Shown one piece after another: positions 44,199-61,399 of a stretch of 64,000 nucleotides of DNA. Within the stretch, counting starts at the first letter, position 1, and each line of letters begins with the position of its first letter. Made by a program: the position numbers and the translations under genes. Below the pieces are notes generated by a model that was given only the letters and a program-made list of their open reading frames with translations, was not told the origin of the DNA and did no database searches. The stretch comes from Gracilimonas sp. (lineage in GTDB: Bacteria > Bacteroidota > Rhodothermia > Balneolales > Balneolaceae). The stretch is taken from the NCBI RefSeq assembly GCF_017641085.1, contig NZ_JAEPPI010000001.1, forward strand, positions 1,178,001 through 1,242,000. Direction: 5' to 3'.

Positions 44199-44540
44199 TT
44201 ATACGTACGACTGTATTTCCTTCGCTACGCCACGGTTATACTGAAAGGCCATGTCTTTGTAATTCACCAAATCTACAATGGTCCCGATTAAGCAAAGTCC
44301 ACCGGTAAAGATGTACAGGATGCCCATCCCGATTTGATTCAATAAAAGACGATGCACACCTGCAATCAGGAAAAAACCAAGAATACAGGTAATTAAAACC
44401 GTTTGCGGGTCTTTTCTTCGTGAACGGTACACAGATGCAAACTTAGAAGCCTGTTCGTCTGATAAGTCTGAAAGTAATTTCCCGACGTATAGTGATTCGT
44501 CCCCTTCTATTTCCGGTAAATGATCTATAACATTAGCCAT
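44199..44540 (-). CDS. TM2-domain membrane protein
   Basis: 113 residues. Two hydrophobic helices joined by a short turn: LITCILGFFLIAGVHRLLLN and MGILYIFTGGLCLIGTIVDL; the G-x-H/D-R-L-x-L-N-Q-x2-x-G pattern (GVHRLLLNQIGMG) is the TM2 signature. The N-terminus is cytoplasmic and acidic. The start overlaps the DUF2752 gene stop by 8 bases. TM2 and DUF2752 genes are frequently adjacent in Bacteroidota. No role is known for either. Confidence 0.85.
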   Translation of the reverse strand: MANVIDHLPEIEGDESLYVGKLLSDLSDEQASKFASVYRSRRKDPQTVLITCILGFFLIAGVHRLLLNQIGMGILYIFTGGLCLIGTIVDLVNYKDMAFQYNRGVAKEIQSYV

Positions 44541-44856
44541 GCTGTTCCTTATTCGTAGTTAGTTTTGATTCTTGATAAAGTTCTTTCCAAATGTAAATGA
44601 TTCTTCCTGAGAGGATGAAAACGGCTGCCGGTCCGGCGAAATGGGCTTGCAACGCGGCTTCAAAATTCCCCCTGAATGTGTAGGATACCGAATGCCCCAA
44701 ACCCTCACCGGGACAATAATCAATGCCAATCCAATCAAAAAAGCAGAGTGAGGTTCCTGTATTTTCAGGACTCATAAGTGCGAGTAACACAAGTCCGGCA
44801 CTGAACACAAACCACTCCAAATGTTTTCTTATAAAGCACATATCCCGACTACGCAT
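44533..44856 (-). CDS. DUF2752-domain membrane protein
   Basis: 107 residues, two or three hydrophobic helices. SLCFFDWIGIDYCPGEGLGH matches the DUF2752 core (C-x2-[FL]...CPGCGLTRA-like), but the second Cys of CPGCG is Glu here, so any paired-Cys function is doubtful. RGNFEAALQAHFAGPAAVFI gives the usual second half (FRG-x-x-AAL-x-H-x). It starts 17 bases after the Pel-like lipoprotein gene, so it could be the operon's tail, although such pairs also occur independently. The function is unknown. Confidence 0.82.
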   Translation of the reverse strand: MRSRDMCFIRKHLEWFVFSAGLVLLALMSPENTGTSLCFFDWIGIDYCPGEGLGHSVSYTFRGNFEAALQAHFAGPAAVFILSGRIIYIWKELYQESKLTTNKEQHG

Positions 44857-44873: not shown

Positions 44874-47800
44874 CTAATTTCTGGGTCTTAACTTTCTGGG
44901 AAAGTAATGAGAAATAGTGAAGAAAAACCGATTTGATCGATACACGTCGCTGGTGGATATCTCACTTCCAATACTGATCTGCCAGAAGTTTTTGAATTTA
45001 TGTTCGAGCTGAATTCTTCCTGAGTAAAAGAAGCCTTCTCTTCGTTCGTGTTTACCAAAAATCTCACCCGTAAGCTGAGTACGATAATCAAAGTTATCGG
45101 GGTTGCGGTACCTGAAATCAAGTCCAATACCCTGGGCAAAATATTGATCGGGGGTGTAATATGGTATACCTGATAAGAAGCTTTCTGTAGCATCGGCATA
45201 ACTCACTTCACCCACAGGCCTGACCCTGAATTTGGTCTCCATTAAATCAAGGAACAGTCGGATTTGCCCTCCGTACCTGAACACATCATTGGTATAATAT
45301 TTACCGGTTGCTGACAGGGCGCTTACTACGTTCCCACTAAAAAAATAATCCTGCCGGTACAGCTGAAGCTGAGCCTGATAGTAGTCGTTTTGGAGTGAAG
45401 TGGACGTGAGCTCAGCCCCTCCTGTTAACTCAATGGAAGTAAATGCTGAGTCTTTGCTGAAACTCATTCCGATGAGTCCTTCAGGAATGAATTCACTGCC
45501 ATCAACCAGTACGGTTGGGCCTATTCGAAATTCAAACTGTTGATTATCAGATCGATGTGTAAATTGATATCCCCCACCCTGATAATTTAATGTTCCATTT
45601 CCGGTAAGGTTATCATCTGAAAAAACCAGGTACTCTGATTTGATAGTGTGAGTGTTCTGTCTTCGGTTTCCAAATTGAACAGAAAGTCCTCCACGGGCAA
45701 AGGTGTTGTCGAAGTTATCGTTTCTGTATTCTCCAAACAGGGAAGCTCTTACGCCTTCTGTCCATCTGTATTCGTCCCTGATTGACTTCCGCTGATCGGG
45801 GTCAAAGAACTTCGGGTATTTTCGGAAGAAGCTTTTTTTCATTTCATACGGTTTAAAGCCAATTTCATTTCTGATCAGCGTATCGGCAGCCAGTCCTTTT
45901 TCCCGGCCATTTTCAAAGAGCGGATATAAAGTGTTGTACGACTGCTCTTCAAAACCTTCATAAAATAAATTAGACCCAACAAAAGATCGGAGATCGGCAT
46001 TGTCAGGATCGTTGGTTACCAGCTCGTTGGCTTTGGCCAGATACAGTGCATCCAGATTGAGCTGTGAAAGCCAGAATAGCTTTAACTGCTCTTCAAAGTC
46101 CGGAGCGTTATTGGCCCAGAACAAAGCTCTCTCATACTCATTGGCTTCAAAACCGTACATGAGCGCTAAGTTGGAAGCAAACGGGGTAAGTTGATCATAG
46201 GCGTAATCGGGAAACTCTTCCACAAGAGCCATCGTGCTGTCCGGGCTTGCATAATAAATAGATCGCTGAACGGTGAAGGCATATAGGGAATCTGTTTGGG
46301 GACGCATATCCAACAGCTTCCGCAAATTCTTTTTCATTTCCGGCCAGTTTTCCTGCGATTCAATGGACTTTGTATAACTCAGCAGCGTCTCATAGTCGTC
46401 GGGGGCAAGCTCTAAGGCCCTCAATCTCCACCGGCGTTCAAAGTCTTCACCAAAGAGCCCAAGTGCGGCTACAACCTGATTCTTAAGTGCTATAACTTTA
46501 CCCGAACGATGTACTTCCCATAATCTTTCCAGGAAAAGTTCAGCCCGGGACTGCATCCCTTCCCAACCGTAATAAGTTAACAGGCGATCAATATCATCCT
46601 GAACCCACACATCATTCCGCAATAGTCGATCTTCAAGAATATCAATGGCGCGGGAAATCTGATTGAATTCTACGCTTAACGAAATAAGCTGTTCCTGATT
46701 TGCAACCGTTGGATTTTGCCGCCACGTCCTAACAGCATCTTCCATCCGTGTATCCCGCCAATTACCTGAATCGAAGACAGAACCATCGGATGCAATGAGG
46801 CTATACTGACGAAAGTTATCGATTTGATCTCTGACCAGGCTATTGACGAACTGCCGGTCATAGTAAAAACTCTTATCAAAATTGGGGACGAAAAACACAT
46901 CAGTTGAAACTTTGAACTGATAGAGATATCCATCCCAAATTCCGGTTCTGCTGTAGCTCAGGCCTTGTTTGTTCAGGGTGCTCTCCACTTCCCTAACCTG
47001 CTCTTGGGTAACATACATGTACCAGTGTGTGTTATCATTTGGAAACTTTGGTACGTAATTATTTCTGTATCCGGTATTAATTTTGATGGACGGGCCGTCT
47101 AAGGAATAGTTGGAAAGCCGCTGCCTCCAGTCTTCGGTTTTTTTGCCCCCCAGTGTTGCAGCTACAAATCTATTATTGGGATAGTGTTGGTATGTGTGTT
47201 TGACTCTTCGGCTTAAAAGCTGATATAAACCATACCCGTATTCCGGATCTGATTTCCAGCCAAGTCCCAAAGGATTTCGACTCGAGAATTCGTCTTCTCT
47301 CCGCTGGGTAACCTGAAAAACATCATCGGGATGCACAAAATGATTCCAGATTCCGGTAAGCAGTTGCAGGCCATGCTGATCCATCAGGGAATTCTCATTC
47401 ATGGTAAAACCACTGCTTATCCGGGGGTAGTTGAATAAGGCCGATGGAGCATAGGGATCAGGGTCAAATTCCCGTCCCCGCCCTTCTGAACGATCCCCAA
47501 AATAGAGAGAACTCATATATTCAATACTCGGCATACCTTTTACAATAGCCTGGATGCCAATGGAATCTATTTGATTTGTTGGGGGCACATAATTTGTTGG
47601 TAAAGGCCCTAAACCATCAATCCTCCATCGCTTGCGGGCCGCCTGAAGCGCCGACACCATGAAGTTCATATTATCCCAATCCTCGGACCACAGCGAAAAG
47701 TGATTATACCCATGAAATGCCAGTTCGTGGCGGGTGTTTTTTATACTGTTGGCCAGAAAAATACTCCCCTGTATAATTTTGTCGTTAAAGATAATGGAGC

Positions 47801-48815
47801 CCTGCCTCCATTCCTGGAAGTCGAAAGGCGGCACTACATTCGCATTATAATTGAATGCGGTCATTGCTGAGTAAGTAATATCGAAAGAATCGGCTAAGGC
47901 TACCATATCCGGCCACCAGATTTTACTTACAAACTCGGTGTGTGTAACATCATACTCTTCATCAATGGGTGGCAGCTTTTCGTTATACAGTGGTGCGGGG
48001 AAGTCATCCAGAAAAATTGTACTCACATCGGCCACCTGATATGGAATTCCCTGCAATCCCCGGAGTATGGAAGAGAAAAGAATTCCCCGATAAATCTTTC
48101 CTCCAACCACAAAACTGTTCACCGTAACTACTTCACCCAGCCCAATTTTATTCGAAATAATGAAAGGTTGATCAGGATCCGTTGCAGTACTTGCTAAAAT
48201 CGAGATATCGTCGCTGAAGTCTTTCCTATCCAATCCATAATGAGGCAGCAATCCGTTTGGATTATATTGCCTGTTCTGCATTCCCGGAAAAGCGTCTCCC
48301 TTTAACCGGAAACCCACATTTATAGAATCTGCGTCAAAGTTAGCATCCTGTTTAATGCCCTGCAGAAACGAAAAACGAGGGTTATTAATCGGCCCGATAA
48401 CTACAAGGGAATTCCCACGCGTAACAAACTCAACTATCTCCTCAATCTCAGCATCCGATAACTCCTGAATACGCTCAGAGGTCACGATCAGGCTTCGTAC
48501 CGACTGTGGAATGGCAAATTCCTGGGTTAAAATTCCAAAGTCGATGGTGAAATAGGGAATCTTGGTGTAATCGAGTGCCTTCTGAACCTGCTCGGATACC
48601 TCAGCACTGAAACCACTTCCCTGATTCTTAATCACCATTACTAAAGGAGAGTTAGATGATACTTCAATCCCGGAAAATCCTCTGAACGAACCGTTTTGCT
48701 GGCAGCCTGATACTATAGCCACAGAGATTACCATGAACGCCAATGCTGCGCTTTGAATAAACCCGGTAGTTCTGGTTCTAAAGTTCGGTTTGTTATTTGA
48801 AGAGTCGTGCTGCAC
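44874..48815 (-). CDS. Pel-like exporter: DUF2194/NodB deacetylase - TPR - beta-barrel lipoprotein
   Basis: 1313 residues, far longer than either DUF2194 proteins or PelA alone. The N-terminal signal ends in the lipobox AIVSGCQQ (Cys38). Residues about 55-260 form a glutamine-amidotransferase-like subdomain of DUF2194. The NodB-type deacetylase region (about 260-640) keeps IFLDDFPAPL (Asp270-Asp271) and HELAFHGYNH (H368-x3-H372). Helical TPR-like repeats span about 700-1000, and about 1040-1313 is a run of beta strands ending FFFTISHYFPRKLRPRN. In Pseudomonas the deacetylase (PelA) and the TPR-barrel exporter (PelB) are separate. So this looks like a fused deacetylation/export machine. It is the last of the Pel-like genes, overlapping the membrane-protein gene by 23 bases. 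Confidence 0.75.
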   Translation of the reverse strand: MQHDSSNNKPNFRTRTTGFIQSAALAFMVISVAIVSGCQQNGSFRGFSGIEVSSNSPLVMVIKNQGSGFSAEVSEQVQKALDYTKIPYFTIDFGILTQEFAIPQSVRSLIVTSERIQELSDAEIEEIVEFVTRGNSLVVIGPINNPRFSFLQGIKQDANFDADSINVGFRLKGDAFPGMQNRQYNPNGLLPHYGLDRKDFSDDISILASTATDPDQPFIISNKIGLGEVVTVNSFVVGGKIYRGILFSSILRGLQGIPYQVADVSTIFLDDFPAPLYNEKLPPIDEEYDVTHTEFVSKIWWPDMVALADSFDITYSAMTAFNYNANVVPPFDFQEWRQGSIIFNDKIIQGSIFLANSIKNTRHELAFHGYNHFSLWSEDWDNMNFMVSALQAARKRWRIDGLGPLPTNYVPPTNQIDSIGIQAIVKGMPSIEYMSSLYFGDRSEGRGREFDPDPYAPSALFNYPRISSGFTMNENSLMDQHGLQLLTGIWNHFVHPDDVFQVTQRREDEFSSRNPLGLGWKSDPEYGYGLYQLLSRRVKHTYQHYPNNRFVAATLGGKKTEDWRQRLSNYSLDGPSIKINTGYRNNYVPKFPNDNTHWYMYVTQEQVREVESTLNKQGLSYSRTGIWDGYLYQFKVSTDVFFVPNFDKSFYYDRQFVNSLVRDQIDNFRQYSLIASDGSVFDSGNWRDTRMEDAVRTWRQNPTVANQEQLISLSVEFNQISRAIDILEDRLLRNDVWVQDDIDRLLTYYGWEGMQSRAELFLERLWEVHRSGKVIALKNQVVAALGLFGEDFERRWRLRALELAPDDYETLLSYTKSIESQENWPEMKKNLRKLLDMRPQTDSLYAFTVQRSIYYASPDSTMALVEEFPDYAYDQLTPFASNLALMYGFEANEYERALFWANNAPDFEEQLKLFWLSQLNLDALYLAKANELVTNDPDNADLRSFVGSNLFYEGFEEQSYNTLYPLFENGREKGLAADTLIRNEIGFKPYEMKKSFFRKYPKFFDPDQRKSIRDEYRWTEGVRASLFGEYRNDNFDNTFARGGLSVQFGNRRQNTHTIKSEYLVFSDDNLTGNGTLNYQGGGYQFTHRSDNQQFEFRIGPTVLVDGSEFIPEGLIGMSFSKDSAFTSIELTGGAELTSTSLQNDYYQAQLQLYRQDYFFSGNVVSALSATGKYYTNDVFRYGGQIRLFLDLMETKFRVRPVGEVSYADATESFLSGIPYYTPDQYFAQGIGLDFRYRNPDNFDYRTQLTGEIFGKHERREGFFYSGRIQLEHKFKNFWQISIGSEISTSDVYRSNRFFFTISHYFPRKLRPRN

Positions 48816-50850
48816 GTCCTTCCTCTGTTGGATAAATATTTCTTAAAACTCCGCCTATAGTAGATTCATCGTCCCTATTTACGATTTCATAAACAATGGC
48901 CTCTTCGGTTTCATAATATACTCTGACTTTCCTTCCTTCAAGCTGTCGAAATGTTACCAGCCATTGCTCAATATCTCTCATTGTATTCTGAGCATCATAC
49001 AAAATTCCCTGCTGAATAGAGCCGTAAGGTGGCTTTTCAACAAACAGAAAGATGCTGGCAGGTGGTACTTCCTGTACTTCCGGGCGTTGATCGTCAGGTA
49101 CCATTAAATATTGCTGGTACAGGGAATCAATTACACCATAATTATTAAGAAAAAACTGATAGTTCATGAAAAAGTGCCGGTTCTTAGCCAGCTCACGATC
49201 CAGTTCCGGTCCTACCGTTGCGTAAGTATAAGGTATTCGCTCATTGATGATATTGTAATAGGCGTTGAAAAAGCCGTTAGGTTCTGTTTTTGGAAGCTTA
49301 CTGCTTTTGCGCAGCCCTCCCTGATATGCAAATAGAAAAACCACAACACCTAAAGTTATTATCGGCATGACATAAGGGGTGATTTTCTCAACAGGCTTAA
49401 TTATCCATTCCAGAAAAATGAATATTGAGCACATACTCAACCCAAAGAAAATGCAGATCAACATCCCGTAAAAACTGTTAAGCTGATCAGGGTCGATATA
49501 CACGTATTGATAATCGAAAAAAGGTGTGTACAAGTATGAGATGCATACAAAAAGCATCAGAAATACCATCTCATCCCCAATTCGTTTCTTTTGTTGAACA
49601 AAAAGCCGGATCAGGAATCCTGCAAATAAAATTATACCAGCATAGAAATATATCAGGCTTAACTCCTCAATGGGTATAATCAAATCGGTGGTAAAGCTGA
49701 ATACCTGGGTATTAAATAGCTGATCCTGAAAGAAAGTACCAACACTCAGTCCTGAGGCCAGGCAATAAATGATATACGGAGCCAACGTCAGCACATAAAT
49801 TGATATCAGGTAGAGTGTAATTTTTCCAAACCGTTTGAAGAAATACTTTTTAGGGATAGATAGAATCCCGACTAACATAAACGGCAGCAACACCATCAAC
49901 AGTACAAATACGTTTGTGAGGCCCGTTGCCACTATTCCCATGAAAATATAGAACCAGGGTGTTTTCCCGCCCGACCGTATATTGCGGAGAAAGAACAGCA
50001 TGGTAGGCAATGCAAAACATAAGGAGAACGAAAGGGATGTCAGTTCAGATTCGAGCTCCATCGAAACCGGCAGGAACAGTGTCGGAAACACTGCATAGAT
50101 AAGAGCTGAAAGCAAAGCTGCAGATTGGTGCCTTCTTTTTGTAAGATCCCGCATTACCCAGAAAATGATAACGGCCAGGAAAAAGCTGATCAAAGCACCG
50201 ATAATGTGTAGTATCATTTCCGGGCTTACCTGTGTAATAGTACTGAAGAAATTGATAATGGAGTGCATTCCCTTGGGCGTGGGATAACCGGAGAAGTATT
50301 CCTGAAGGCTCAGCCCTTTTACCGCATCCAATTCAAAATACCACACCCTGCTGAACGGTGCTGAATTCTGAATGGACGGTATAATTCTAAGCACCGAGGC
50401 TAAAATACCTATCCCTACAGCAGCAATGGAATATGGGTTTTCTGGGTTAATGGGAGGTTTCTTAAAAATTCGTTGTTTGAAATCGGCCCAGTTCAGGTTC
50501 TTTACTTTTTCAATAAACAGAACGTGGTTGGCTACAATACGGTTTTCGCCCCGGTTAAAAATATCTGTTACCGTACTTCCCTCCCATTTGCGTTTAAAGA
50601 AATGAACCAGCAGCGGCAGCATCAAAAGACAAAACAGAATACTGATGAAATCATAGATATGGAGATTCACCAGCATAAAGGTTCCAATGATGATCAAACC
50701 ACCCAAACCCACCCAGGAAAATACTATACGATCAATTCCCCTTTTATTTCCGGCGTGTTCAAAAAACAAGGGGGTCACAAAACCAAATACAAAGAGGAAA
50801 CTGATGGTAAGCCTGATCACCGAGAATATGGCTTGAATATCGTAGCTCAT
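48793..50850 (-). CDS. Large polytopic membrane protein of the Pel-like operon
   Basis: 685 residues. I do not recognise a family. The first ~540 residues carry about 12-14 hydrophobic helices (e.g. LIIIGTFMLVNLHIYDFISI; YFYAGIILFAGFLIRLF) with a periplasmic-looking loop near 170-210 (FSRVWYFELDAVKGLSLQEY). The C-terminal 140 residues are soluble and mixed in charge. The layout resembles GT-C-type membrane glycosyltransferases or O-antigen ligase/polymerase-type proteins, but no diagnostic Asp motif is certain. It may replace inner-membrane PelE as a synthase partner. Overlaps of 4 and 23 bases with its neighbours put it firmly within the operon. Confidence 0.7.
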   Translation of the reverse strand: MSYDIQAIFSVIRLTISFLFVFGFVTPLFFEHAGNKRGIDRIVFSWVGLGGLIIIGTFMLVNLHIYDFISILFCLLMLPLLVHFFKRKWEGSTVTDIFNRGENRIVANHVLFIEKVKNLNWADFKQRIFKKPPINPENPYSIAAVGIGILASVLRIIPSIQNSAPFSRVWYFELDAVKGLSLQEYFSGYPTPKGMHSIINFFSTITQVSPEMILHIIGALISFFLAVIIFWVMRDLTKRRHQSAALLSALIYAVFPTLFLPVSMELESELTSLSFSLCFALPTMLFFLRNIRSGGKTPWFYIFMGIVATGLTNVFVLLMVLLPFMLVGILSIPKKYFFKRFGKITLYLISIYVLTLAPYIIYCLASGLSVGTFFQDQLFNTQVFSFTTDLIIPIEELSLIYFYAGIILFAGFLIRLFVQQKKRIGDEMVFLMLFVCISYLYTPFFDYQYVYIDPDQLNSFYGMLICIFFGLSMCSIFIFLEWIIKPVEKITPYVMPIITLGVVVFLFAYQGGLRKSSKLPKTEPNGFFNAYYNIINERIPYTYATVGPELDRELAKNRHFFMNYQFFLNNYGVIDSLYQQYLMVPDDQRPEVQEVPPASIFLFVEKPPYGSIQQGILYDAQNTMRDIEQWLVTFRQLEGRKVRVYYETEEAIVYEIVNRDDESTIGGVLRNIYPTEEGRAARLFK

Positions 50851-51710
50851 GAGCTCCCGGATTTCAGGGTGTTGGCAACTGAATCGGGCTGCACGGGCAG
50901 TTCACTCAAACCAATATTGCTAATAAAGTATGGGCGCCCTAAAGTATCCAGGCGGGCTTTAATTTGCTTTCTTTTGGTATCAGAATCAGCAAAACCTACA
51001 ATAAAATACGGCTTACCGCTTTGGGTGGAATAGTGGTTCAAATATTCAAGCCGGTCGTTGAATTCTGCAGCAGACCGTATCCGATACCGTTTATTTTCAA
51101 AGTCATAGTCGGATGCGAGTGCCTCGGTTAAAAAAGCGTCAACATCATCGCCGGTCTCTCCCAGTAAAAAAGCTCCTGCATTCTGGATGATCGTCAACCC
51201 GGGGTATCGCTGCCTGATTCCCTCGATCAGCTGAACCATGTAGGGCTGTAAATGTGCGCGTTCTGTGTTCGGAGCTACGGCATCAACGGTATCGAGGAAC
51301 AGACCATCTACACCTTTTTCCGTGATGGCCGGCAAAACTTCTGTTAAAATGACCCGCCGGGCTTCAGTACTTTCCAGGTCGATAAAAAAACTATTCCAGT
51401 TTTCATTTTTCCCCAGAAAACCGATTTCGGCTAAACGGGGATAATACCAGCGGTTAGCATCCACTTCTCCAAGCGTGACATAGGCAATAATCTTTGTGCC
51501 GGTTGCACGCAAAGCGTCCATTTCTTCCTCGGTATAAAAATCCGGCTCTATAATTACCATGCGGTAATTCTGCACCTGTTCCGGTGTTACCTTAGCATAA
51601 CAAACCCCAAATGGAGTGTGATCTGCCATCGAAAAGGAAGCCTGTTTCGTGTTGTTACACTGTGTAAAAAGAAGTGCCATTATGCAAATTGCTGAAAAAT
51701 TCAGTTTCAT
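50847..51710 (-). CDS. GH114-type / PelA-hydrolase-like glycoside hydrolase, lipoprotein
   Basis: 287 residues. A TIM-barrel endo-alpha-1,4-polygalactosaminidase-like (COG3868, PelA N-terminal hydrolase-like) enzyme expected to cut GalNAc-rich polymer. The N-terminal signal MKLNFSAICIMALLFTQC has a probable lipobox, though Gln at -1 is unusual. Barrel motifs are MVIIEPDFYTEEEMDAL, IIAYVTLGEVDANRWYY (strand 2 Glu), GVDGLFLDTVDAVAP (strand 4 Asp) and IIQNAGAFLL, then AFLTEALASDYDFENKRYRI (catalytic-type Glu). Such a hydrolase as a single gene contrasts with P. aeruginosa PelA, where it is fused to the deacetylase. ATGA overlaps on both sides show translational coupling. Confidence 0.85.
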   Translation of the reverse strand: MKLNFSAICIMALLFTQCNNTKQASFSMADHTPFGVCYAKVTPEQVQNYRMVIIEPDFYTEEEMDALRATGTKIIAYVTLGEVDANRWYYPRLAEIGFLGKNENWNSFFIDLESTEARRVILTEVLPAITEKGVDGLFLDTVDAVAPNTERAHLQPYMVQLIEGIRQRYPGLTIIQNAGAFLLGETGDDVDAFLTEALASDYDFENKRYRIRSAAEFNDRLEYLNHYSTQSGKPYFIVGFADSDTKRKQIKARLDTLGRPYFISNIGLSELPVQPDSVANTLKSGSS

Positions 51711-53332
51711 TCTTCAACACCTAACCTCACACATTCTTGCCATCCTAAGGCCTGTAAAAGCTGAATGGCCGTTGGAATCAATACCATATCAAATTCCACA
51801 TCGGCACGTTCCATCAGGTTCTTCGATAATAACTCGAGCCATTCGTCGTCGGTTTTGGAGTCATCACCGGCATATGTTTCTACGAAATCCACCACAAACT
51901 CAAACAAGCCGATAATTTTCCCCGTCCACGGAATGCTTTCAGATTTCAACCCGGAAGGAGAACCGTTTCCGTTTACCCATTCGTGGTGGGTTTTTATTCC
52001 CTCAAGCACATCACGGTGTATCGAGAGCTGCTCAACCAAGTTAGCCCCAATGAGAGGATGTGAAAGCTCACCTCCAATTGTTTTACCCGGCTCAATACTT
52101 ATAGCCCCCACATAGCCGATATCATGAAGCTTGGCTGTTTTGATGATAATCTCCATCTCGTCATCTTCCAGACCAAAAAACATTCCGAATCGCTGCACAA
52201 AAGCAACCATTCTTGGGGTGTGAAAACGGGTTTTCTCCCGGCTTTGCTCGATGGCGCGTAACATCTTGTAATAACCATCCATAAGCTGATCTGAGAAATG
52301 CTCATTTTTATACCGGTAGTCAAAGAGGTTGGCCAGCGACAGTCCGATTTCTTCTAACAGTCCTTCAACATCAAGCTTTCCTCCTTTGTCGGTTTTCTCA
52401 ACCATTAGAAATCCTGAATGATGCTCTCCGTTAAAATACTCGACATCAACCTGCTTACCCCACTGTTTTAGAAACTCTTGTCCGAATTCGGTAGCCGAGA
52501 GATTGCCGTCACTATCTTTATAGAGGGCTTTTTCTCCTTCAGCCGTAAAATAACCGGCTACTTTTTCCTTCATACCAATAGAGGCAAGCAATTTATGCCC
52601 GCCCGGGGTAAACTCAACGATACATCCGGATTCTACTTTTCTTCCATTAACTACATACCTCAGCATAATCTGGGCAACCCCTTCCGTATTCAACTTCCCG
52701 CTGCCCAAATCCGAAACTACATCGTCGATTTTCTGCTCATATTCGCGCTGCGGGTTACTCTCTTCATCATCGAGGTTGATGAGCCAGTTGGCCAGCAATC
52801 TACCCACAATCGATAGTTTTGGGGTGATTTGATCCGGGCTTTTCGTGTACGGACCTGCGCAGTATATCCCCCATTGCTCTCCATCCTTTTTAAACAGAGG
52901 AATATGCTCGCACTGTCCGATGGAATGTGATGCTATCCCTTGCTCTTTAAACACCTCATCCATGCTCATTTTCTTTTCAAGGTTCTGCAACTGGTACTCG
53001 AAATCTTTTATGTATTCTTTCTGCTGTTGTGATTGTTTGTGAGGCTCTTGTTCTTCGTTTTTATCACGCAGTATGTTCCTGGTAAGCACATGTCGCCGGT
53101 CGAGCACCAATTTATCGCCCTGCAATCTATACACAAAATGTACGGGGGCCCGGTACAGCAAATCCATCCAGTTTACGATATCGCCGAATGAGGGACTTTC
53201 TTTTCGCGACAGGTGTTCAGCCGATAACTCCCAGAATTCAAGCTGTTGCTCGGTTCCGAAAGCCTCCATAGAGAAAGCCTTGCTAAGCCGATTGCCCACA
53301 GTATGTATGTAACTTCGAACGTCTTTAATCAT
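51707..53332 (-). CDS. GAF-like plus degenerate HD-GYP regulatory protein of the Pel-like operon
   Basis: 541 residues, no membrane segments. The N-terminal ~330 residues look like two GAF-type sensory domains separated by a linker (e.g. HSIGQCEHIPLFKKDGEQWG; SIVGRLLANWLINLDDEE). The C-terminal HD-GYP-type domain (about 360-530) has FHTPRMVAFVQRFGMFFG, KLHDIGYVG (His403-Asp404), ELSHPLIGANLVEQLS and GIKTHHEWVNGNGSPSG. The usual HDxGK has Tyr for Lys and the GYP motif reads GSP, so it is altered; metal-binding His/Asp residues are kept. It sits where a c-di-GMP receptor (PelD) is expected, so it may bind or degrade a cyclic dinucleotide to control synthesis (inference). Confidence 0.78.
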   Translation of the reverse strand: MIKDVRSYIHTVGNRLSKAFSMEAFGTEQQLEFWELSAEHLSRKESPSFGDIVNWMDLLYRAPVHFVYRLQGDKLVLDRRHVLTRNILRDKNEEQEPHKQSQQQKEYIKDFEYQLQNLEKKMSMDEVFKEQGIASHSIGQCEHIPLFKKDGEQWGIYCAGPYTKSPDQITPKLSIVGRLLANWLINLDDEESNPQREYEQKIDDVVSDLGSGKLNTEGVAQIMLRYVVNGRKVESGCIVEFTPGGHKLLASIGMKEKVAGYFTAEGEKALYKDSDGNLSATEFGQEFLKQWGKQVDVEYFNGEHHSGFLMVEKTDKGGKLDVEGLLEEIGLSLANLFDYRYKNEHFSDQLMDGYYKMLRAIEQSREKTRFHTPRMVAFVQRFGMFFGLEDDEMEIIIKTAKLHDIGYVGAISIEPGKTIGGELSHPLIGANLVEQLSIHRDVLEGIKTHHEWVNGNGSPSGLKSESIPWTGKIIGLFEFVVDFVETYAGDDSKTDDEWLELLSKNLMERADVEFDMVLIPTAIQLLQALGWQECVRLGVEE

Positions 53333-53341
53333 AGGGATACC

Positions 53342-54982
53342 TCAATATGCAGAGTAATAGAAATAATCGAGATGTTTAAAAAATCTTTTTGCCAAAATTC
53401 CGGTGGATATACCAAATACCAGCGATCCGGCAATCAGGCCAATAACAGCATATTCTAAACCAAAAATACGGCTGCATAAAAATCCGGTTATAAAATTCAC
53501 AAACAGTGAACCAATCATGGAATACATTACCATTTCGGGCCGGTTCAAAGTGAAAAAGAACAGGCTGTTCAACAATCCATATATCAAAAATAAATAGCCG
53601 ATACTTGCCAGCCAAAAGACCTTAAAGGTCATCGGGTTGGCGAAAAAATCTGAAATCTCGGGTACTTCATTTTCAAAAATACGCAGGCTCAATACTCCAT
53701 AATACGTAATCAAGATAGATATCCCGCCGACCACCAATAGCAACAAAATCTGTTTGATATAGAACCTCCTGAAAAAGCGGTTAAAAAGTTTAAGCTTTGA
53801 AATAACGGCTTTTTTCTGAGCGGGAATCAGGTTCAGTGAAAAAGAATGAACGCTATACTCAAGCATGGCAATGGTAATAACCAGACTTATTAGTGCCCAG
53901 TCCATCCCCAATTCGTATGGGGTGTTAAACCAAATGATGTATTCAGGCGGAGGCGGGCCGGCCGACCATGCCATTAACCGATCCATGAACAGGAAGGTGA
54001 AGTAGCAAAATCCATACACAAAGTAGCGATAGGTATTGTAATAACTTACCTCTCCCTCCGGTAATGATTGTTTAAAGAGTTCCTGACGAAGGGACCTGAT
54101 CTTCAGCTTATAATAAATGAATGCATAGCCGGAGATTATGACGGTAGCTGTTAAAATCCCTAACCATTGAGACAGGTAAATTCCGAGTCCGGCAAAATCC
54201 ATCCCAAATATCACAAAAATGGTACCTGATACAATCCCCATCAAAATCATAAACCGTTGCTCGGTAGCAAATAGTACGGATGCTGAAAGCAGAAGCAGCG
54301 AGATCAATACCATGTAAATCATGGACAAAATGATGAGCTGTTGCGGGTAGAAGGGCAAGATCAGGTTGATCCCAAAGATGACTAAAGCGGAAATAAACAC
54401 AAATGGAATCCCGATTTTCATCACGGCGATGGTAGCTTTTGCTGCCAGGTAATAATTACCCTCTCCCTTATACTTGGACACCAGTCGGCCCAACGTTTGA
54501 ATAAATCCACCAGTTAGAATGAAGGAAAGCATGGTACCCAATGCGACTACAGTTGCCTGTGCCTCATTAAAATCGAACCAGGCCCATAGTGCATACTCAA
54601 ATACAATAATGGCAATGATTTGTGAAAGCATAGGCATGGAAAAAACCATCCCTGCCGTGTAATGTTTGGCAAATAGCTTGAGCGTACGCCCTATACCTCC
54701 AAACTTAAACTCATCAACATCTTCCTCTGCATCCCCGGCAGCTTCTTTTTCCTTCTTTTTAATCCGGTTGTACACTTCGTTGCCAAGGTCAAAAACAGAA
54801 TCGTAGCCATAATCGGTTTTGGCATCTACATTTCGAACCCCGAGAGATTCAATGGTAGCGGCTACCGCCCATTTACTGATTGGGTTTCCAATCAGATCAT
54901 ACACTCGCTCAGTTATATCCTGAACGGCTTCAGCCTTAGCAGGACGTTCAAGCTGTATTTGATCATGCTCAGGCATACTCAA
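53342..54982 (-). CDS. pelG: PelG-type exopolysaccharide membrane transporter
   Basis: 546 residues. COG4267/PelG-like, a polysaccharide-transport/Wzx-superfamily inner-membrane protein that moves the Pel chain across the membrane with PelF. About 12 helices begin near residue 105 with AGMVFSMPMLSQIIAIIVFE; FILTGGFIQTLGRLVSKYKG and YYLAAKATIAVMKIG follow, and the loop at about 350 carries RLMAWSAGPPPPEYIIWFNT, a PelG hallmark (the WSAGP sequence). The cytoplasmic N-terminus is about 95 residues longer than in the roughly 456-residue Pseudomonas PelG and is highly charged. It overlaps PelF by 14 bases. Confidence 0.9.
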   Translation of the reverse strand: MSMPEHDQIQLERPAKAEAVQDITERVYDLIGNPISKWAVAATIESLGVRNVDAKTDYGYDSVFDLGNEVYNRIKKKEKEAAGDAEEDVDEFKFGGIGRTLKLFAKHYTAGMVFSMPMLSQIIAIIVFEYALWAWFDFNEAQATVVALGTMLSFILTGGFIQTLGRLVSKYKGEGNYYLAAKATIAVMKIGIPFVFISALVIFGINLILPFYPQQLIILSMIYMVLISLLLLSASVLFATEQRFMILMGIVSGTIFVIFGMDFAGLGIYLSQWLGILTATVIISGYAFIYYKLKIRSLRQELFKQSLPEGEVSYYNTYRYFVYGFCYFTFLFMDRLMAWSAGPPPPEYIIWFNTPYELGMDWALISLVITIAMLEYSVHSFSLNLIPAQKKAVISKLKLFNRFFRRFYIKQILLLLVVGGISILITYYGVLSLRIFENEVPEISDFFANPMTFKVFWLASIGYLFLIYGLLNSLFFFTLNRPEMVMYSMIGSLFVNFITGFLCSRIFGLEYAVIGLIAGSLVFGISTGILAKRFFKHLDYFYYSAY

Positions 54983-56552
54983 ACTCCTTTTCTTTCACAT
55001 GGTCTAACAACTTCAGCACCGATTTAACCTTAACGCGTTCTTTCCACGGCGAACGTTCTTTGGCGGCGAGCTTCGTGTAGGAGTCGTAATACGCATTCAC
55101 CGACTTTTCTGTTGTGAATGTAAGCAATACACGGTCCCGGGCTTTCCTGCCCAGCTCAAGCCGTAAATCATCGTCAATTAGCAATGTAACCACCCCTTTT
55201 GCAATATCTTGCGGATCGCGTGGCTTGCATAAAATTCCACACCCTTCAAGGGCGTCCCGTATCCCTCCCACATCGGTGGCCACAACCGGACGGCCACAGC
55301 TCATAGATTCAATCACGGTGTACGGGAATCCTTCCGAGATGGAAGTTAAAATGGAGATATCGCCTTCATTGAAAATCATACTGGGCTGATCGTGGAATCC
55401 CCCAAATTGAAAAGTGTCCTCCAGCTGCAATTCTGAAACCAACGCCTTGCACCTGGCTACATATTCTTTATCCACTTCAAGACTTCCATATACCTTGAAT
55501 TGAACCTCCGGGATCTCTTTTCGAACGATATCAGCAGCTCTGATCATCGTCTCGATATCTTTTAAGGGAAAAACCTGAGCTACAGCGATCACAGTTGGCA
55601 CGCCCTGTGTTTGCCTTGGTTTTGGGGTTGGCTTAAACAGATCCGTATTCACCCCGTTGTAAATAGGTATTATATTTTCCTCAGCCGCCTCAAACCGTTT
55701 TTCCCAATCCTTGTTAGCTGTTGTAACCGGCGAAATCTGGTCGGCAGTATAATACACTGCCCGGCTTACCATGGTTGAAAGATCCACGAGTAATTTTTTT
55801 GAAAAGAAAGGCATATCGGCCTGCCCTACATTGATCAATCGCTCCCGCATATACACCCCGTGATCGGTTACCATGCTTGGGATGCCTTTCTCGTATTTAG
55901 CAGCAATGGAGATTAGCGCAGGGAAACCGGCCAGGGTTGCATGGGTAACATCTATTTCATCCGAAATGGGTGCCGCAACGGGCATTAAAAAATGATACAA
56001 CCAGCGCATGCCAAAGGTAATGTCAAATACCCGGGGCTGTTCGTTATACGACAAATCAGACGCTTCAAAATTGTTAATGAGCGACTGTTTAAACCCGGTC
56101 CACAATAAAGGCTGCCTCAGGGTTTGTTTGTAGTCGTAGTATTGAAAGTATTTCCAAAGCCCATACAGGATATCACTGATGCGCTGTACATCGGTATAAG
56201 GATCAAAAAGGCATTCGATGAAGTCTTCAAAAATAGGCTTGAAATAGGTGTTAATGACCTTCTTAGATACCCGCGACTTCTTTTCAATTTGATAAGAAAA
56301 CGGACGGCGGTCATCGTAATAGTCTGAGGGCTCATCAACTCCCCACAGAGGTATGTGAGTTATCCTTCGTATGTTTTCAGGCAGTCGATACCGGGTTTCA
56401 ACATAGGGATTACCGGTAATGGCCAACAGTTCAAAATCTACCTTCTCTACCAGCTCTGTGCACAAGATATGCGACCATGTAGACACACCGCCCCCGCTGT
56501 AAGGATATGAACCTTCAGTCTCGAACAGCACATATGGTTTGTCTTTGCTCAC
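54969..56552 (-). CDS. pelF: PelF-type GT4 glycosyltransferase
   Basis: 527 residues, near the ~507 of PelF, the cytoplasmic UDP-sugar transferase that polymerises the Pel backbone. The N-terminus has YVLFETEGSYPYSGGGVSTW, the G-x-YP-x3-GGVS-x-W acceptor loop of PelF, then VDFELLAITGNP. The donor half shows IIPIYNGVNTDLFKPTPKPR, VIAVAQVFPLKDIETMIRAA, and ISEGFPYTVIESMSCGRPVV, which is E-x7-E, then ATDVGGIRDALEGCGILCKP. Overlaps: 14 bases with pelG and 4 bases (ATGA) with a second PelF-like gene. Confidence 0.93.
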   Translation of the reverse strand: MSKDKPYVLFETEGSYPYSGGGVSTWSHILCTELVEKVDFELLAITGNPYVETRYRLPENIRRITHIPLWGVDEPSDYYDDRRPFSYQIEKKSRVSKKVINTYFKPIFEDFIECLFDPYTDVQRISDILYGLWKYFQYYDYKQTLRQPLLWTGFKQSLINNFEASDLSYNEQPRVFDITFGMRWLYHFLMPVAAPISDEIDVTHATLAGFPALISIAAKYEKGIPSMVTDHGVYMRERLINVGQADMPFFSKKLLVDLSTMVSRAVYYTADQISPVTTANKDWEKRFEAAEENIIPIYNGVNTDLFKPTPKPRQTQGVPTVIAVAQVFPLKDIETMIRAADIVRKEIPEVQFKVYGSLEVDKEYVARCKALVSELQLEDTFQFGGFHDQPSMIFNEGDISILTSISEGFPYTVIESMSCGRPVVATDVGGIRDALEGCGILCKPRDPQDIAKGVVTLLIDDDLRLELGRKARDRVLLTFTTEKSVNAYYDSYTKLAAKERSPWKERVKVKSVLKLLDHVKEKEFEYA

Positions 56553-57739
56553 TCTTCTGCTGCTTCCTCCACCCGGCTCATATTCTTCATTAATGTCTCA
56601 TAGTCAGAAAATATCTGTTCCCAGGTATGATTTTCTTTTACCCTTTCAAATCGGGTATTAACGTACCGATTAAAATGTAGCCGATTATTCCAAAGCCTTG
56701 TTATTTTTCCCGCCAGGCCTTCCAAAGAAGAACCAGGGGGCGAAACAAGGCCATATTTTTCGGTTAAATCACCTACACGAAACCCAACGGGTAACGCTTT
56801 ATGAGCTAAAGCCTCTAACATTACCAGTGGCTGAGATTCGTTGTGGCTGGTTATCGACAAAAAATCAAAATCACTAAAAAAGTTTTTGGCTGGCTGGTTC
56901 CAAATACATTCCACTTCCGGATAATCCTTGCAAACAGATCTAACCTGCTTTTCAAGCTCGTTTTCATTGGCATCACTTAATAGCATTCGAAATTTAGGAG
57001 TGATACTGTGCCCTTTGAACCCATCCACCAACTCAAAAAAAGCAAGTGGATTCTTCATTTCTGCGCATCGCCCCACCCAACCAATTACCGGCCGATCCGC
57101 TCTGCTTTTCTCCGATCTGAGCCAGGAAGCCGGGATTCCGTTTGGGATATATATGATGTCCGTTGCGCCCAATTCTTTTTGATATGGAATATTCGATTCG
57201 GAAACCGTAACCACTTGCTCGGCATTCTTATACGTGTATAAAGCAAGTTCTTTGAAAGAGGACATCATATTGATTTTATCACGGCTGCCTTCTGGAATTT
57301 TATATCCGCATTCCAGCGCAACCGCTCCCATTTCGATCTCCTTCCAGTAAATGGCGTGTTCTGTCAATAGAAGCGGCGTGTCTATTTGATTAGCCAATCT
57401 ACTACCCAGCCAACCGGCAAAACCGGTATTGGTTACATGTACAAGATCAAACTCTGAATCCGAAAGTGTATGGTTCGACAATGCCTGATCGTACCAATGT
57501 TCCAGGTGAGCTGAAGTATCACTTCCCAATTCAGGGGGTGAAATCCGGATGAAATCGTTGATATTGTCGGTTAAAGGATACAGTGCTTCAGAAGGGTTCA
57601 ATCCCTGAAATTCATCCGTAGCGATCTGTAAGATTGTAAAATCAAATTCCTGCAAATGGCTAAGATAGCGGTAAACCCATTCGCTTACACCCCCTCTGTA
57701 CCACGGATAGGTCCCTTCTATAATGAGCAGAACTTTCAT
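56549..57739 (-). CDS. Second PelF-like GT4 glycosyltransferase
   Basis: 396 residues. The N-terminal MKVLLIIEGTYPWYRGGVSE, then WVYRYLSHLQEFDFTIL, shares the G-x-YP-x3-GGVS-x-W loop with PelF, but the protein is about 130 residues shorter. Donor half: TDIIYIPNGIPASWL, VIGWVGRCAEMKNPLAFFEL, and HNESQPLVMLEALAHKALPV (E-x7-E: ESQPLVMLE), with VGDLTEKYGLVSPPG. Pseudomonas Pel clusters have one PelF; a tandem second transferase suggests either a heteropolymer backbone or a priming/branching step (inference). It overlaps pelF by ATGA and follows the response regulator by 9 bases. Confidence 0.88.
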   Translation of the reverse strand: MKVLLIIEGTYPWYRGGVSEWVYRYLSHLQEFDFTILQIATDEFQGLNPSEALYPLTDNINDFIRISPPELGSDTSAHLEHWYDQALSNHTLSDSEFDLVHVTNTGFAGWLGSRLANQIDTPLLLTEHAIYWKEIEMGAVALECGYKIPEGSRDKINMMSSFKELALYTYKNAEQVVTVSESNIPYQKELGATDIIYIPNGIPASWLRSEKSRADRPVIGWVGRCAEMKNPLAFFELVDGFKGHSITPKFRMLLSDANENELEKQVRSVCKDYPEVECIWNQPAKNFFSDFDFLSITSHNESQPLVMLEALAHKALPVGFRVGDLTEKYGLVSPPGSSLEGLAGKITRLWNNRLHFNRYVNTRFERVKENHTWEQIFSDYETLMKNMSRVEEAAEE

Positions 57740-57748
57740 ATGATTAAA

Positions 57749-58684
57749 TCAGGAGTTCGCTTTTTTATATAGCCGATATAGAATAGATCCCGATTGTTTA
57801 ATTAACCTGGAGACAAGCTCAAACTCAGTGGATGAAAACAGCACCGACCGTTTCATTAGCAGTATGCCAAACATAGGGGCATCAGCCGGAACGTTCATAT
57901 TATTCATTAACAGCTCCCGCTCACTTATCGCAAACAACGGTACCGTAATTTCTGCAGGCAGATCTTCTTTCTTGGAGAAATCCACAAAAAAGCCTTGCTC
58001 ATCATTAAACACATGATTGCTCATGTAGGCTTCTTTGGATTCTTTAAGGAGCTCAAAGCTCTTCTGCCCGCTTATATCGGTAACGTTATCCGGTTTTATT
58101 GAATTTTTAGACTCCATAAATAATAATTTGGATTGGTCATCGTGTACCATCCAGAAGCCGGTAAATTTATTCGTAATGATTTCATTCAATCCATTACCCA
58201 GCGTTTTAACTGTATCAGAAAACGAACCGGAAATGGCCGTCTCCATCAACTTCATAACCAGCCGGTCTTTCTTTTTAGACTGATCTTCGTCCAGCCCGGT
58301 TATGCGTATATCCGTCACAATCTTCATTCGGATTATTTCGAGCACCCGTTCGCGGTCGTTATTCAAAAGTTCTTTTTTGATGAAATCAGCCGCACCCAAA
58401 TCATAGGCTTTCTGCTCTTTCTCAACCGTTGGCAGGTTCGTCATTATTAAAACGGGAATTTTCTTCTTCTTCTCATCCAACCGAATAGACTCCAAAAATT
58501 CGAGCCCTGAAATTCCCGGCATATGGATATCTGAAAGAATAAGATTGACATCTTTTTCAGATAAAATATCAATGGCTTCCTGCACATTGTGCGCATTTAA
58601 AACAGTAAACTCGTTCTTAAGCAGGTTTTTGATCATGAAATGAATCGGTTCATCATCATCAATAACTAAAACCTTGTAATTCAT
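57749..58684 (-). CDS. Response regulator with unusual C-terminal GAF-like domain
   Basis: 311 residues. The N-terminal receiver (1-125) has VLVIDDDEPIHFMI (acidic pocket), NLILSDIHMPGISGLEF with the phosphoacceptor Asp, IPVLIMTNLP (Thr) and AADFIKKELL (Lys). The C-terminal 180 residues (about 130-310) hold no helix-turn-helix, GGDEF or HD domain; a GAF-like fold is suggested by ANKFTGFWMVHDDQSKLLFM-type strands. So the output is likely by protein-protein contact. It lies 12 bases after the histidine kinase and 9 bases before the second PelF-like gene, so it is probably the local signalling partner of the polysaccharide operon. Confidence 0.88.
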   Translation of the reverse strand: MNYKVLVIDDDEPIHFMIKNLLKNEFTVLNAHNVQEAIDILSEKDVNLILSDIHMPGISGLEFLESIRLDEKKKKIPVLIMTNLPTVEKEQKAYDLGAADFIKKELLNNDRERVLEIIRMKIVTDIRITGLDEDQSKKKDRLVMKLMETAISGSFSDTVKTLGNGLNEIITNKFTGFWMVHDDQSKLLFMESKNSIKPDNVTDISGQKSFELLKESKEAYMSNHVFNDEQGFFVDFSKKEDLPAEITVPLFAISERELLMNNMNVPADAPMFGILLMKRSVLFSSTEFELVSRLIKQSGSILYRLYKKANS

Positions 58685-58696
58685 AGACTTTCTAAT

Positions 58697-59839
58697 TTAT
58701 GCTAACTTTTCTTCTAAAGGTAAACTAATAAAAAACGTGGTGCCCTTATCCAATTCAGACTCAACCCAGATCTTTCCTTCATGCAGTTCAACATATAACT
58801 GTACAATATCTAAACCAAGTCCGGTTCCAACCTCACCATTGGTTCCATTTCGGGAAGGTTTATCGGGATTAGTGAATAAATCTTCTTGTAATTTCTCAGG
58901 GATCCCAATACCGGTGTCCTGCACTCTGATTTCCAAGCTGCCATTATTCTGGATTGCATGAACGACAACTTCTCCCCCTGAAGGAGTAAATTTCAGTGCA
59001 TTCGAAACCAGGTTGTTGACGGCTATTTCTAATTTATTTTGATCAGCATCCAACTTAATTCCGGCCGGACTAACAGAATAATCCAGCTTTACGTTTTTAA
59101 CCACCGACTTTGCCCTGTTCATGGAAACTACACGCTCAAATAATTCCGTAATTGACACGGTTGAATATTCCAGTTCTTCAGGCTCAATTTTCTTTGACTC
59201 CCGGTCAAGGACTTCCCTCACCAAATTCAAAAGATTGGTTCCACTTTCTTCAATTACAGAAAGCATTTGGGTTTGTTCCTCGGCTGTAATCTTATTGCTG
59301 TCCCTCATCAGTTTTACCAGCCCGATTATTCCGGTGAGTGGATTCTTTATATCGTGGCTTACCGTTCGTACCAAATCATCCTTTTTTTGGTTCAGCCTGC
59401 TCAACTCAATTTCACGTTCTCTTAAAATTTTTATGCGTTCATTAAGCTGCTTTTGAAGGGAGCGAATTTGCAGGTGTGTCTTAATTCTGGCCAGGGTTTC
59501 TTCTTTCTGAAAGGGCTTGGTAATGTAGTCCACCCCACCATATTTAAATCCCTGTACTTTATCTTCGGTATCTGATAGCGAGCTTAAAAATATAACCGGA
59601 GTATCTTCAAGCAGCTGATTTGATTTAATTCGCTTGACCACTTCAAATCCGCTGATGTCGGGCATCATGATATCGAGCAAAATTAAGTCCGGCTCATGTT
59701 TTTTTGCCAACTCTATAGCTTCATGTCCGTTTGAGGCTTCAATATATTCATAGCCCTCTTTCGTCAGTACATGAGATAGCAGACGAAGGTTGGCAGGCGT
59801 ATCATCTACAATTAAGATTAAACTTTCTTTTGGCTTCAA
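58697..59839 (-). CDS. Soluble histidine kinase with N-terminal receiver domain
   Basis: 380 residues, no membrane segments. Residues 1-122 form a receiver: ILIVDDTPANLRLLSHVL, DLILLDIMMPDISGFEVVKR (Asp phosphoacceptor), VIFLSSLSDTEDKVQGFKYG and DYITKPFQ. A short coiled-coil (KQLNERIKILREREIELSRL) leads to HisKA with RTVSHDIKNPLTGIIGLVKL (H-box). The ATPase has AVNNLVSNALKFTPSGGEVV (N), VQDTGIGIPEKL (G1) and GEVGTGLGLDIVQLYVELHE (G2). It is first in the Pel-like operon, so it probably feeds a signal into polysaccharide production, perhaps downstream of another kinase. No HPt domain is visible. Confidence 0.93.
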   Translation of the reverse strand: MKPKESLILIVDDTPANLRLLSHVLTKEGYEYIEASNGHEAIELAKKHEPDLILLDIMMPDISGFEVVKRIKSNQLLEDTPVIFLSSLSDTEDKVQGFKYGGVDYITKPFQKEETLARIKTHLQIRSLQKQLNERIKILREREIELSRLNQKKDDLVRTVSHDIKNPLTGIIGLVKLMRDSNKITAEEQTQMLSVIEESGTNLLNLVREVLDRESKKIEPEELEYSTVSITELFERVVSMNRAKSVVKNVKLDYSVSPAGIKLDADQNKLEIAVNNLVSNALKFTPSGGEVVVHAIQNNGSLEIRVQDTGIGIPEKLQEDLFTNPDKPSRNGTNGEVGTGLGLDIVQLYVELHEGKIWVESELDKGTTFFISLPLEEKLA

Positions 59840-60823: not shown

Positions 60824-61399
60824 TTACGCGAAAATCACTTCCTCTTCCGAAATTATCACATCCAATTTTTCGTCAAATTCTTCGATGGGTATTTCATCAA
60901 ACAGAAAGGCATCAAACACTAAGCCTACTTTTATAGCTTTGGCTTCTTTTAAAAAACGATCATAAAACCCCTTGCCATATCCCAGCCTGTTTCCGGCTCG
61001 GTCTGCAGCAGCCATGGGTACAATAATAAGCTCAAGCTCCTTCACATTTACCGGAGTAATATGCTTTGGCTCTTCTACTCCCCATTTGTTTTTTTTCAGG
61101 TCAGAAAGAGAGCGAATCTCCGAGTGGGTTAAACTCCTGTCTTCGAAATTGGTGACTGGAACTACGGCTCTCTTGTCTCCATTTAAAATATCTTCGAGTA
61201 AGCCATCGGTGTAAACTTCCCGCCGCTGGTTCATAGATATATAGGTATGAACCGTTTTAGCTTCTTTGAAGTAGTCAGCATTTGTAAGTGAAGAGATAAT
61301 CTGATCTGATTTATTCTTCCATTCCCTGTCAGGAATCTGCAGTCTTTCAGCTAATACTTTTTCCCTTAAATCCTGCTTTTGTTGGGAAATGGAGCTCAT
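60824..61399 (-). CDS. 5-formyltetrahydrofolate cyclo-ligase
   Basis: 191 residues. ATP-dependent conversion of 5-formyl-THF to 5,10-methenyl-THF in folate salvage. Signatures: QKQDLREKVLAERLQIPDRE near the N-terminus with basic residues for ATP, VPVTNFEDRSLTHSEIRSLS, WGVEEP, and LIIVPMAAADRAGNRLGYGK, then GFYDRFL (the GGGYYDR-like ATP motif), and VGLVFDAFLFDEIPIEEFDE at the end. It overlaps the stop of bshC by ATGA, so it is co-transcribed with it, and comes before the PspC gene. Confidence 0.92.
   Translation of the reverse strand: MSSISQQKQDLREKVLAERLQIPDREWKNKSDQIISSLTNADYFKEAKTVHTYISMNQRREVYTDGLLEDILNGDKRAVVPVTNFEDRSLTHSEIRSLSDLKKNKWGVEEPKHITPVNVKELELIIVPMAAADRAGNRLGYGKGFYDRFLKEAKAIKVGLVFDAFLFDEIPIEEFDEKLDVIISEEEVIFA

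Follow-up and report, generated by a model that had tools for sequence, protein, structure and literature searches.

How might a Pel-type exopolysaccharide be synthesized, exported and gated in a bacterium in whose genome no GGDEF protein is found? This question is raised by a gene cluster of Gracilimonas sp. (assembly GCF_017641085.1; 3.49 Mb in 7 contigs) that lies at positions 44874-59839 of a 64,000-nucleotide stretch of contig NZ_JAEPPI010000001.1 (positions 1,178,001 to 1,242,000; G000:C1:1178001-1242000), the whole of which we refer to as the window. A preliminary description of this DNA had proposed that it represents a separate Pel class of Gram-negative bacteria, in which export is fused and regulation replaced, and our analysis finds that reading right in outline. 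The locus very probably encodes all parts of a Pel-type, synthase-dependent exopolysaccharide system, with a proposed export path and regulation, and we infer from the encoded proteins that its polymer is Pel-like and composed of N-acetylgalactosamine (GalNAc) and galactosamine.

The open reading frame (ORF) list and translations give nine ORFs without internal stops in this interval, all on the minus strand and separated by gaps of -23 to +12 bp, just as the tightly packed, co-directional set had been described. In order of transcription they encode a REC-histidine kinase, a REC regulator, a second PelF-like protein (F2), PelF (F1), PelG, an HD-GYP protein, a GH114 hydrolase, a membrane protein and a deacetylase fused to a tetratricopeptide repeat (TPR) region and barrel. 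What does not hold is the boundary at 44874, as the unit runs on into a DUF2752 small membrane protein gene (44533-44856, minus strand) downstream of the fusion gene and, downstream of that, a TM2-domain small membrane protein gene (44199-44540, minus strand). Both are present in most Balneolaceae copies, and together with the nine genes they read as one operon. Gene order was read in 19 related loci, with named relatives that include Gracilimonas mengyeensis, Balneola and other Balneolaceae. The Balneolaceae relatives examined exhibit the same nine-gene order with proteins that are 37-90% identical, the exceptions being a missing kinase in two loci (L041 and L042) and a locus in which no GH114 gene was seen (L036). 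Conservation of order at such identities indicates that the arrangement is not due to chance.

The distribution of the core genes was analyzed in a sample of 296 genomes from the same phylum. PelF, the PelG-type protein, the full-length DUF2194 protein (the fusion protein) and the membrane protein, which has a GT-C fold, occur in an identical set of 23 genomes, and no sampled genome contains any of them without the others; 14 other genomes give only weak partial matches to DUF2194. The carriers comprise 18 Balneolaceae, two Flavobacteriaceae-type genomes (f26) and three others (G011, G016 and G243), and in control searches Thermotoga maritima was positive for PelF, PelG and DUF2194. This pattern bears on the possibility that the locus is a capsule or O-antigen cluster of the GT4/Wzx type that is unrelated to Pel and resembles it by chance, a view that could draw on matches to the GT4 superfamily and on a PelG profile that is silent on the window copy. 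It is hardly credible, however, as PelF, PelG, the PelADA fusion and the GT-C-fold protein share the same 23 of 296 genomes and are accompanied by a PelA-type hydrolase and a PelB-type barrel. We have consequently rejected a chance or capsule cluster on co-occurrence, structural and solved-homolog evidence.

Several related loci depart from the usual arrangement. Next to an intact core, an uncultured Aliifodinibius (L107) has broken extra pieces of F1, PelG and the GT-C gene, reflecting partial duplication or decay, and a locus assigned to a Bifidobacterium breve metagenome-assembled genome (L138) is a Flavobacteriaceae-like copy of the core that probably represents binning contamination. A KSB1 pel-like operon includes an epimerase-like short-chain dehydrogenase/reductase gene of the sugar-nucleotide type (L115:1474-2397) that is a possible source of UDP-GalNAc.

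Evidence for a fused export path comes from P0001 (44874-48815, minus strand; 1313 residues), a putative lipoprotein with the lipobox VSGC and Cys38. Its residues 61-501 (47313-48635), a CBM114 and CE26 deacetylase region, align with E=1.4e-33 to 9ZAU, the Bacillus cereus PelADA that founded the CBM114 and CE26 families and that has been shown to act on alpha-1,4-GalNAc (PMC13254593). The key residues of 9ZAU are D262, D263, the two histidines of HxxxH, P405, R458, H488 and D491 (PMC13254593). By alignment these correspond to D270, D271, H368, H372, P412, R465, H495 and D498 of P0001, and all eight catalytic or metal residues are invariant in 64 of 64 homologs, which points to a PelA-type deacetylase with a complete active site. 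Residues 560-1313 were modeled with a mean predicted local distance difference test score (pLDDT) of 89 as a small beta domain, about 22 helices and 16 strands; each part is confident, while a predicted template modeling score (pTM) of 0.57 makes the layout of the parts uncertain. The model contains a helical TPR-like region (residues about 648-1020; 45756-46874) followed by a predicted outer-membrane barrel of 16 strands (residues about 1022-1305; 44901-45752) that resembles those of PgaA, BcsC and PelB. PelB is known to combine a TPR scaffold and a 16-strand barrel (PMC12141448). In VIA-align comparisons the model matched PgaA (Z 24.0), BcsC (23.3) and PelB (9h80; 21.9), with unrelated porins scoring from 15.7 down, and thus the likeness to PelB is one of fold only, with PgaA and BcsC slightly ahead of it. 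Since the N-terminus matches 9ZAU and the C-terminus models as TPRs and a 16-strand barrel, the prediction that deacetylase and export pore form one chain, as the preliminary description had it, is supported. The fusion is found in 66 of the 68 homologous loci that hold the deacetylase, and a KSB1 locus encodes the deacetylase and a TPR protein as adjoining genes. Fodinibius sediminis has two Pel-like loci in one genome (L112 and L128), the first of which encodes a fusion of 1586 residues with a C-terminal extension.

The hydrolase, by comparison, is a separate gene, also as originally described. P0003 (50847-51710, minus strand; 287 residues) is a GH114 protein whose nearest solved relative is the PelA hydrolase domain (9cgy, 4.9e-13; 5tcb, 3.5e-10), with TM1410 farther away (5e-5), and an N-terminal signal sequence is likely by eye. 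In Pseudomonas, full-length PelA binds the PelB TPRs while the isolated hydrolase domain does not, the PelA deacetylase domain is predicted to be the PelB contact, and PelB enhances deacetylation (PMC12022489). A fused deacetylase with the hydrolase split off agrees, by analogy, with this PelA-PelB model.

The preliminary description had counted two PelF-type transferases, which stands for one of them. P0006 (F1; 54969-56552, minus strand; 527 residues) contains DUF3492 and GT4 regions with an EX7E motif at E407. It scores 161.3 bits against the NCBI PelF equivalog, which has a cut-off of 100 bits, and 139 bits against PF11997; the best other GT4 model, stp2, gives 94, such that PelF is not outscored by related GT4 families. 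P0007 (F2; 56549-57739, minus strand; 396 residues) has the same two regions and retains EX7E at E301, but at 85.6 bits it falls under the equivalog cut-off. Judged by its sequence, F2 is a shortened, fast-evolving DUF3492/GT4 paralogue of PelF. A search of the genome found no other PelF locus, and so there appears to be no ordinary pel locus elsewhere. In a phylogenetic tree, F1 proteins from many phyla form one clade that is split from alphaproteobacterial PelF with strong support, while F2 proteins are on long branches with an unsure placement.

Among the core assignments, that of PelG is the least secure. P0005 (53342-54982, minus strand; 546 residues), encoded next to pelF, is called a PelG-type inner-membrane exporter via its orthologs because the window copy itself matches no profile, and in this form the original PelG assignment stands. 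Five orthologs, from other genera of Balneolaceae and one distant genome (G243), exceed the PF16933 (PelG) cut-off and jointly span positions 23-452 of 452; in a comparison of 17 family members, 5 match PF16933. At E<=0.01 the orthologs have no match to any other Pfam or NCBIfam family, so PelG is not better explained by another family. A search of solved structures with the family gave nothing credible. A Caldilineae metagenome-assembled genome encodes PelF and a P0005-type protein in a single ORF of 1253 residues (L116:3482-7243). Residues 1-105 of P0005 form a strongly conserved soluble region outside the PelG profile match, and this extra N-terminus of about 100 residues has P34, V40, A42, T43, E45, S46 and G48 among its many invariant positions.

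Some results weigh against assigning the locus to Pel. P0005 has no Pfam match even at E=10 and no NCBIfam match, and an hhalign comparison of its family with three alphaproteobacterial PelG proteins was not significant, these alignments being shallow. No homologs of PelC (a lipoprotein ring), PelD or PelE (an inner-membrane protein) were recognized, although PelC and PelE profiles were not searched. Gene-order reading, without a PelC profile search, noticed no further conserved gene in the core operon, and the remaining inner-membrane gene is that of the GT-C-fold protein. In the tree the synthase also branches separately from alphaproteobacterial PelF, and therefore its substrate specificity could have shifted. 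This last point raises the possibility that, with architecture and mechanism unchanged, the sugar or linkage has been altered by the PelF branch and the GT-C protein, giving a different hexosamine or a mixed polymer. Neither a protein of the GT-C fold nor an additional GT4 paralogue is described for canonical Pel loci, and the authors of a survey of pel operons caution that the product of a diverged pel locus may be some other polymer (PMC7112194). Nonetheless, P0001 keeps every catalytic residue of an enzyme that acts on alpha-1,4-GalNAc (PMC13254593), and P0003 is nearest to the PelA hydrolase domain, making a different product rather unlikely in our view.

The large membrane protein, P0002 (48793-50850, minus strand; 685 residues), is present as first described, but it can now be assigned a recognizable fold. 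It has no Pfam or NCBIfam match, while its model (pLDDT 84, pTM 0.84) matches STT3 (Z 21.1), PglB, PMT4, ArnT and ALG12, with leading matches from Z 21.1 to 7.9 that all have a GT-C fold. P0002 is thus predicted to be a GT-C membrane protein. Its catalysis is doubtful because the first periplasmic loop has no conserved acid: among 38 homologs, no column of residues 150-214 has aspartate or glutamate above 66%. The GT-C profile gave no match at plasmid-borne PelF loci of Deinococcus, Streptomyces, Thermus and alphaproteobacteria, so not every PelF locus has this component. As far as the open-access papers searched extend, a GT-C-fold component is undescribed for any Pel system.

Non-catalytic GT-C-fold subunits occur in glycosylphosphatidylinositol (GPI) transamidase, which the P0002 model matches at Z 12.7. 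As a refinement of the overall reading that we favor, though with confidence no better than evenly balanced, P0002 may be a non-catalytic assembly platform in place of the PelE and PelD of Pseudomonas. The GT-C protein is a partner in 23 of 23 carrier genomes, which along with the unconserved loop acid is consistent with such a role. Against this, GT-C fold proteins are mostly enzymes, and two acids of that loop, E173 and D175, are present in many Balneola and Gracilimonas copies.

Regulation of the locus appears to involve integral phospho-signaling, as had been suggested, though this applies to Balneolaceae and near relatives: Flavobacteriaceae and Roseivirga carry the core with none of this module, and KSB1, Kryptonia and Ignavibacteria loci, as read, have other regulatory proteins beside the core, such as a GAF-PP2C-like protein. 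The kinase and regulator named by the preliminary description are both confirmed. P0009 (58697-59839, minus strand; 380 residues) is a REC-HisKA-HATPase histidine kinase with an H-box motif from residue 160 and a REC acidic pocket. P0008 (57749-58684, minus strand; 311 residues) has a REC domain in which D9, D10, D52 and K104 are invariant in 13 of 13 sequences, followed by a C-terminal domain with no Pfam match that looks GAF-like by eye. With these two the family-specific module is complete, and it would probably provide control by protein phosphorylation.

The product of the sixth gene had been described as a GAF/HD-GYP protein. P0004 (51707-53332, minus strand; 541 residues) does end in an HD-GYP domain, the only HD_5 domain found in its genome, but the domain is degenerate, and Pfam detects no GAF in the window copy and GAF in only 1 of 16 homologs. 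Relative to PmGH, the family keeps H189, H221, D222, H250 and H276 in 16 of 16 sequences and H277 in 13 of 16, whereas D183 is replaced by R, K or S, E185 by K in 12 of 16, and K225 by Y, L or M; the tyrosine of the GYP motif (Y285) varies. In PmGH, D183A and K225A abolish activity, while changing the GYP tyrosine has little effect (PMC4159591). With the catalytic D183 and K225 replaced, P0004 does not appear to be an active HD-GYP phosphodiesterase.

No GGDEF domain was found in the Gracilimonas genome and 18 relatives, and none was found in any of the 18 Balneolaceae carriers or in the two Flavobacteriaceae-type carriers. The search can be relied upon because it was positive for three other carriers (G011, G016 and G243) and eight controls. 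None of the nine proteins matched GGDEF or PelD, a membrane-bound protein with a GAF and a degenerate GGDEF domain, and the PelD profile PF16963 gave no match in the 23 carriers, with the control also silent. It is thus unlikely that Balneolaceae use cyclic di-GMP (c-di-GMP) made by GGDEF enzymes as the signal, a conclusion that does not extend to other cyclic dinucleotides. Together with the degenerate HD-GYP domain, this supports the earlier claim of replaced regulation. It is improbable, in our estimation, that the system remains under the control of c-di-GMP or some other cyclic dinucleotide, with P0004 as an active phosphodiesterase or nucleotide receptor. The best solved relatives of P0004 are a 3'3'-cyclic GMP-AMP phosphodiesterase and c-di-GMP phosphodiesterases, the six PmGH histidine and aspartate positions given above as kept are found in all or most homologs, and alanine changes within the GYP motif left PmGH active (PMC4159591), but this is set against the lack of GGDEF matches in 18 of 18 Balneolaceae carriers, a search that covered no other cyclic-dinucleotide cyclases. 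On the basis of gene content, a phosphorelay and degenerate HD-GYP protein acting in place of PelD is the hypothesis that we prefer.

The Gracilimonas locus shares with P. aeruginosa pelABCDEFG a PelF, a PelG family protein, a PelA-type hydrolase, a deacetylase and a TPR protein with a 16-strand barrel. It differs in having a PelADA/CE26-type deacetylase that is fused to the barrel, a hydrolase with its own gene, a GT-C-fold protein and a second PelF paralogue. Gram-positive Pel has also been described (PMC7112168). The B. cereus pelDEADAFG locus likewise has PelF, PelG, a PelADA (CBM114 and CE26) with the same catalytic residues and a separate glycoside hydrolase, but its PelADA is without the TPR or barrel part of P0001 and it has a c-di-GMP-binding PelD and a PelE, neither of which was recognized here, with the limit on PelE given above (PMC7112168, PMC13254593). 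The operon survey reports pelB fission, rearrangement, gain and loss, and pel variants of Thermotoga and aquatic thermophiles that resemble this locus in being divergent, with rearranged pelA and pelB; in the main text examined, we found no fusion of pelB with a deacetylase and no Bacteroidota or Balneolota loci (PMC7112194). A barrel fold with a TPR scaffold is also common to PgaA/PgaB of poly-N-acetylglucosamine (PNAG) and BcsC of cellulose systems. In PNAG export a deacetylase is coupled to the exporter (PMC12022489), there as a separate protein, as opposed to one chain here. A further difference concerns the synthases of these polymers and the polymerase studied here, which is a GT4 PelF. 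PNAG and cellulose synthases are GT2-type. No description of this Pel class was found in the open-access literature searched, subscription papers and preprints being outside the search.

From these parts we propose the following mechanism. PelF would polymerize an amino sugar in the cytoplasm, most likely GalNAc from UDP-GalNAc. PelG would then move the chain across the inner membrane with the help of the GT-C-fold protein, which would serve either as a platform or as an additional glycosyltransferase. The fused deacetylase on its periplasmic TPR rail would then partly deacetylate the chain to give a cationic polymer that leaves via the P0001 barrel. Because the export path has a deacetylase of its own and the hydrolase stands apart from it, deacetylation and export would be hard-wired and cutting would be a side branch, in agreement with what has been proposed for the non-covalent PelA-PelB pair of Pseudomonas. 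The kinase would phosphorylate the regulator, and the regulator and degenerate HD-GYP protein would act on the synthase complex, replacing PelD and c-di-GMP. The F2 paralogue may prime, branch or regulate.

Elsewhere in the window is a separate polysaccharide cluster (7802-13865, plus strand) with GT4-like proteins, a Wzx-type Polysacc_synt protein, a polysaccharide deacetylase and a UDP-N-acetylglucosamine 2-epimerase. The window also contains a PKD/Ig-rich protein with a type IX secretion signal (Por_Secre_tail; 18777-21182) and BshC of bacillithiol biosynthesis (61396-63009), which adjoins folate cyclo-ligase and PspC genes.

Taken further, these loci may represent a third Pel class spread across Bacteroidota, Balneolota and related phyla, in which the GT-C protein is a new and obligate component and in whose Balneolaceae members synthesis is turned on by a phosphorelay via a catalytically dead HD-GYP protein without c-di-GMP; we offer this tentatively, at somewhat less than even confidence. 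If true, a domain linked to c-di-GMP would have been kept as a pure protein-signaling module after loss of the messenger. With this distribution, the range of Pel-type matrix genes comes to include Bacteroidota that are common in marine and fresh waters. For an open question of Pseudomonas Pel biology, the PelADA-barrel fusion amounts to a natural experiment, as it is the deacetylase and not the hydrolase that is on the export rail, just as the PelA-PelB model predicts. Pel is regarded as a model of a c-di-GMP-gated biofilm sugar, and a widespread class in whose Balneolaceae and Flavobacteriaceae carriers no GGDEF enzymes are found would mean that other types of gating are possible. The parts of this locus constitute a set with which to test how Pel is gated without GGDEF enzymes.

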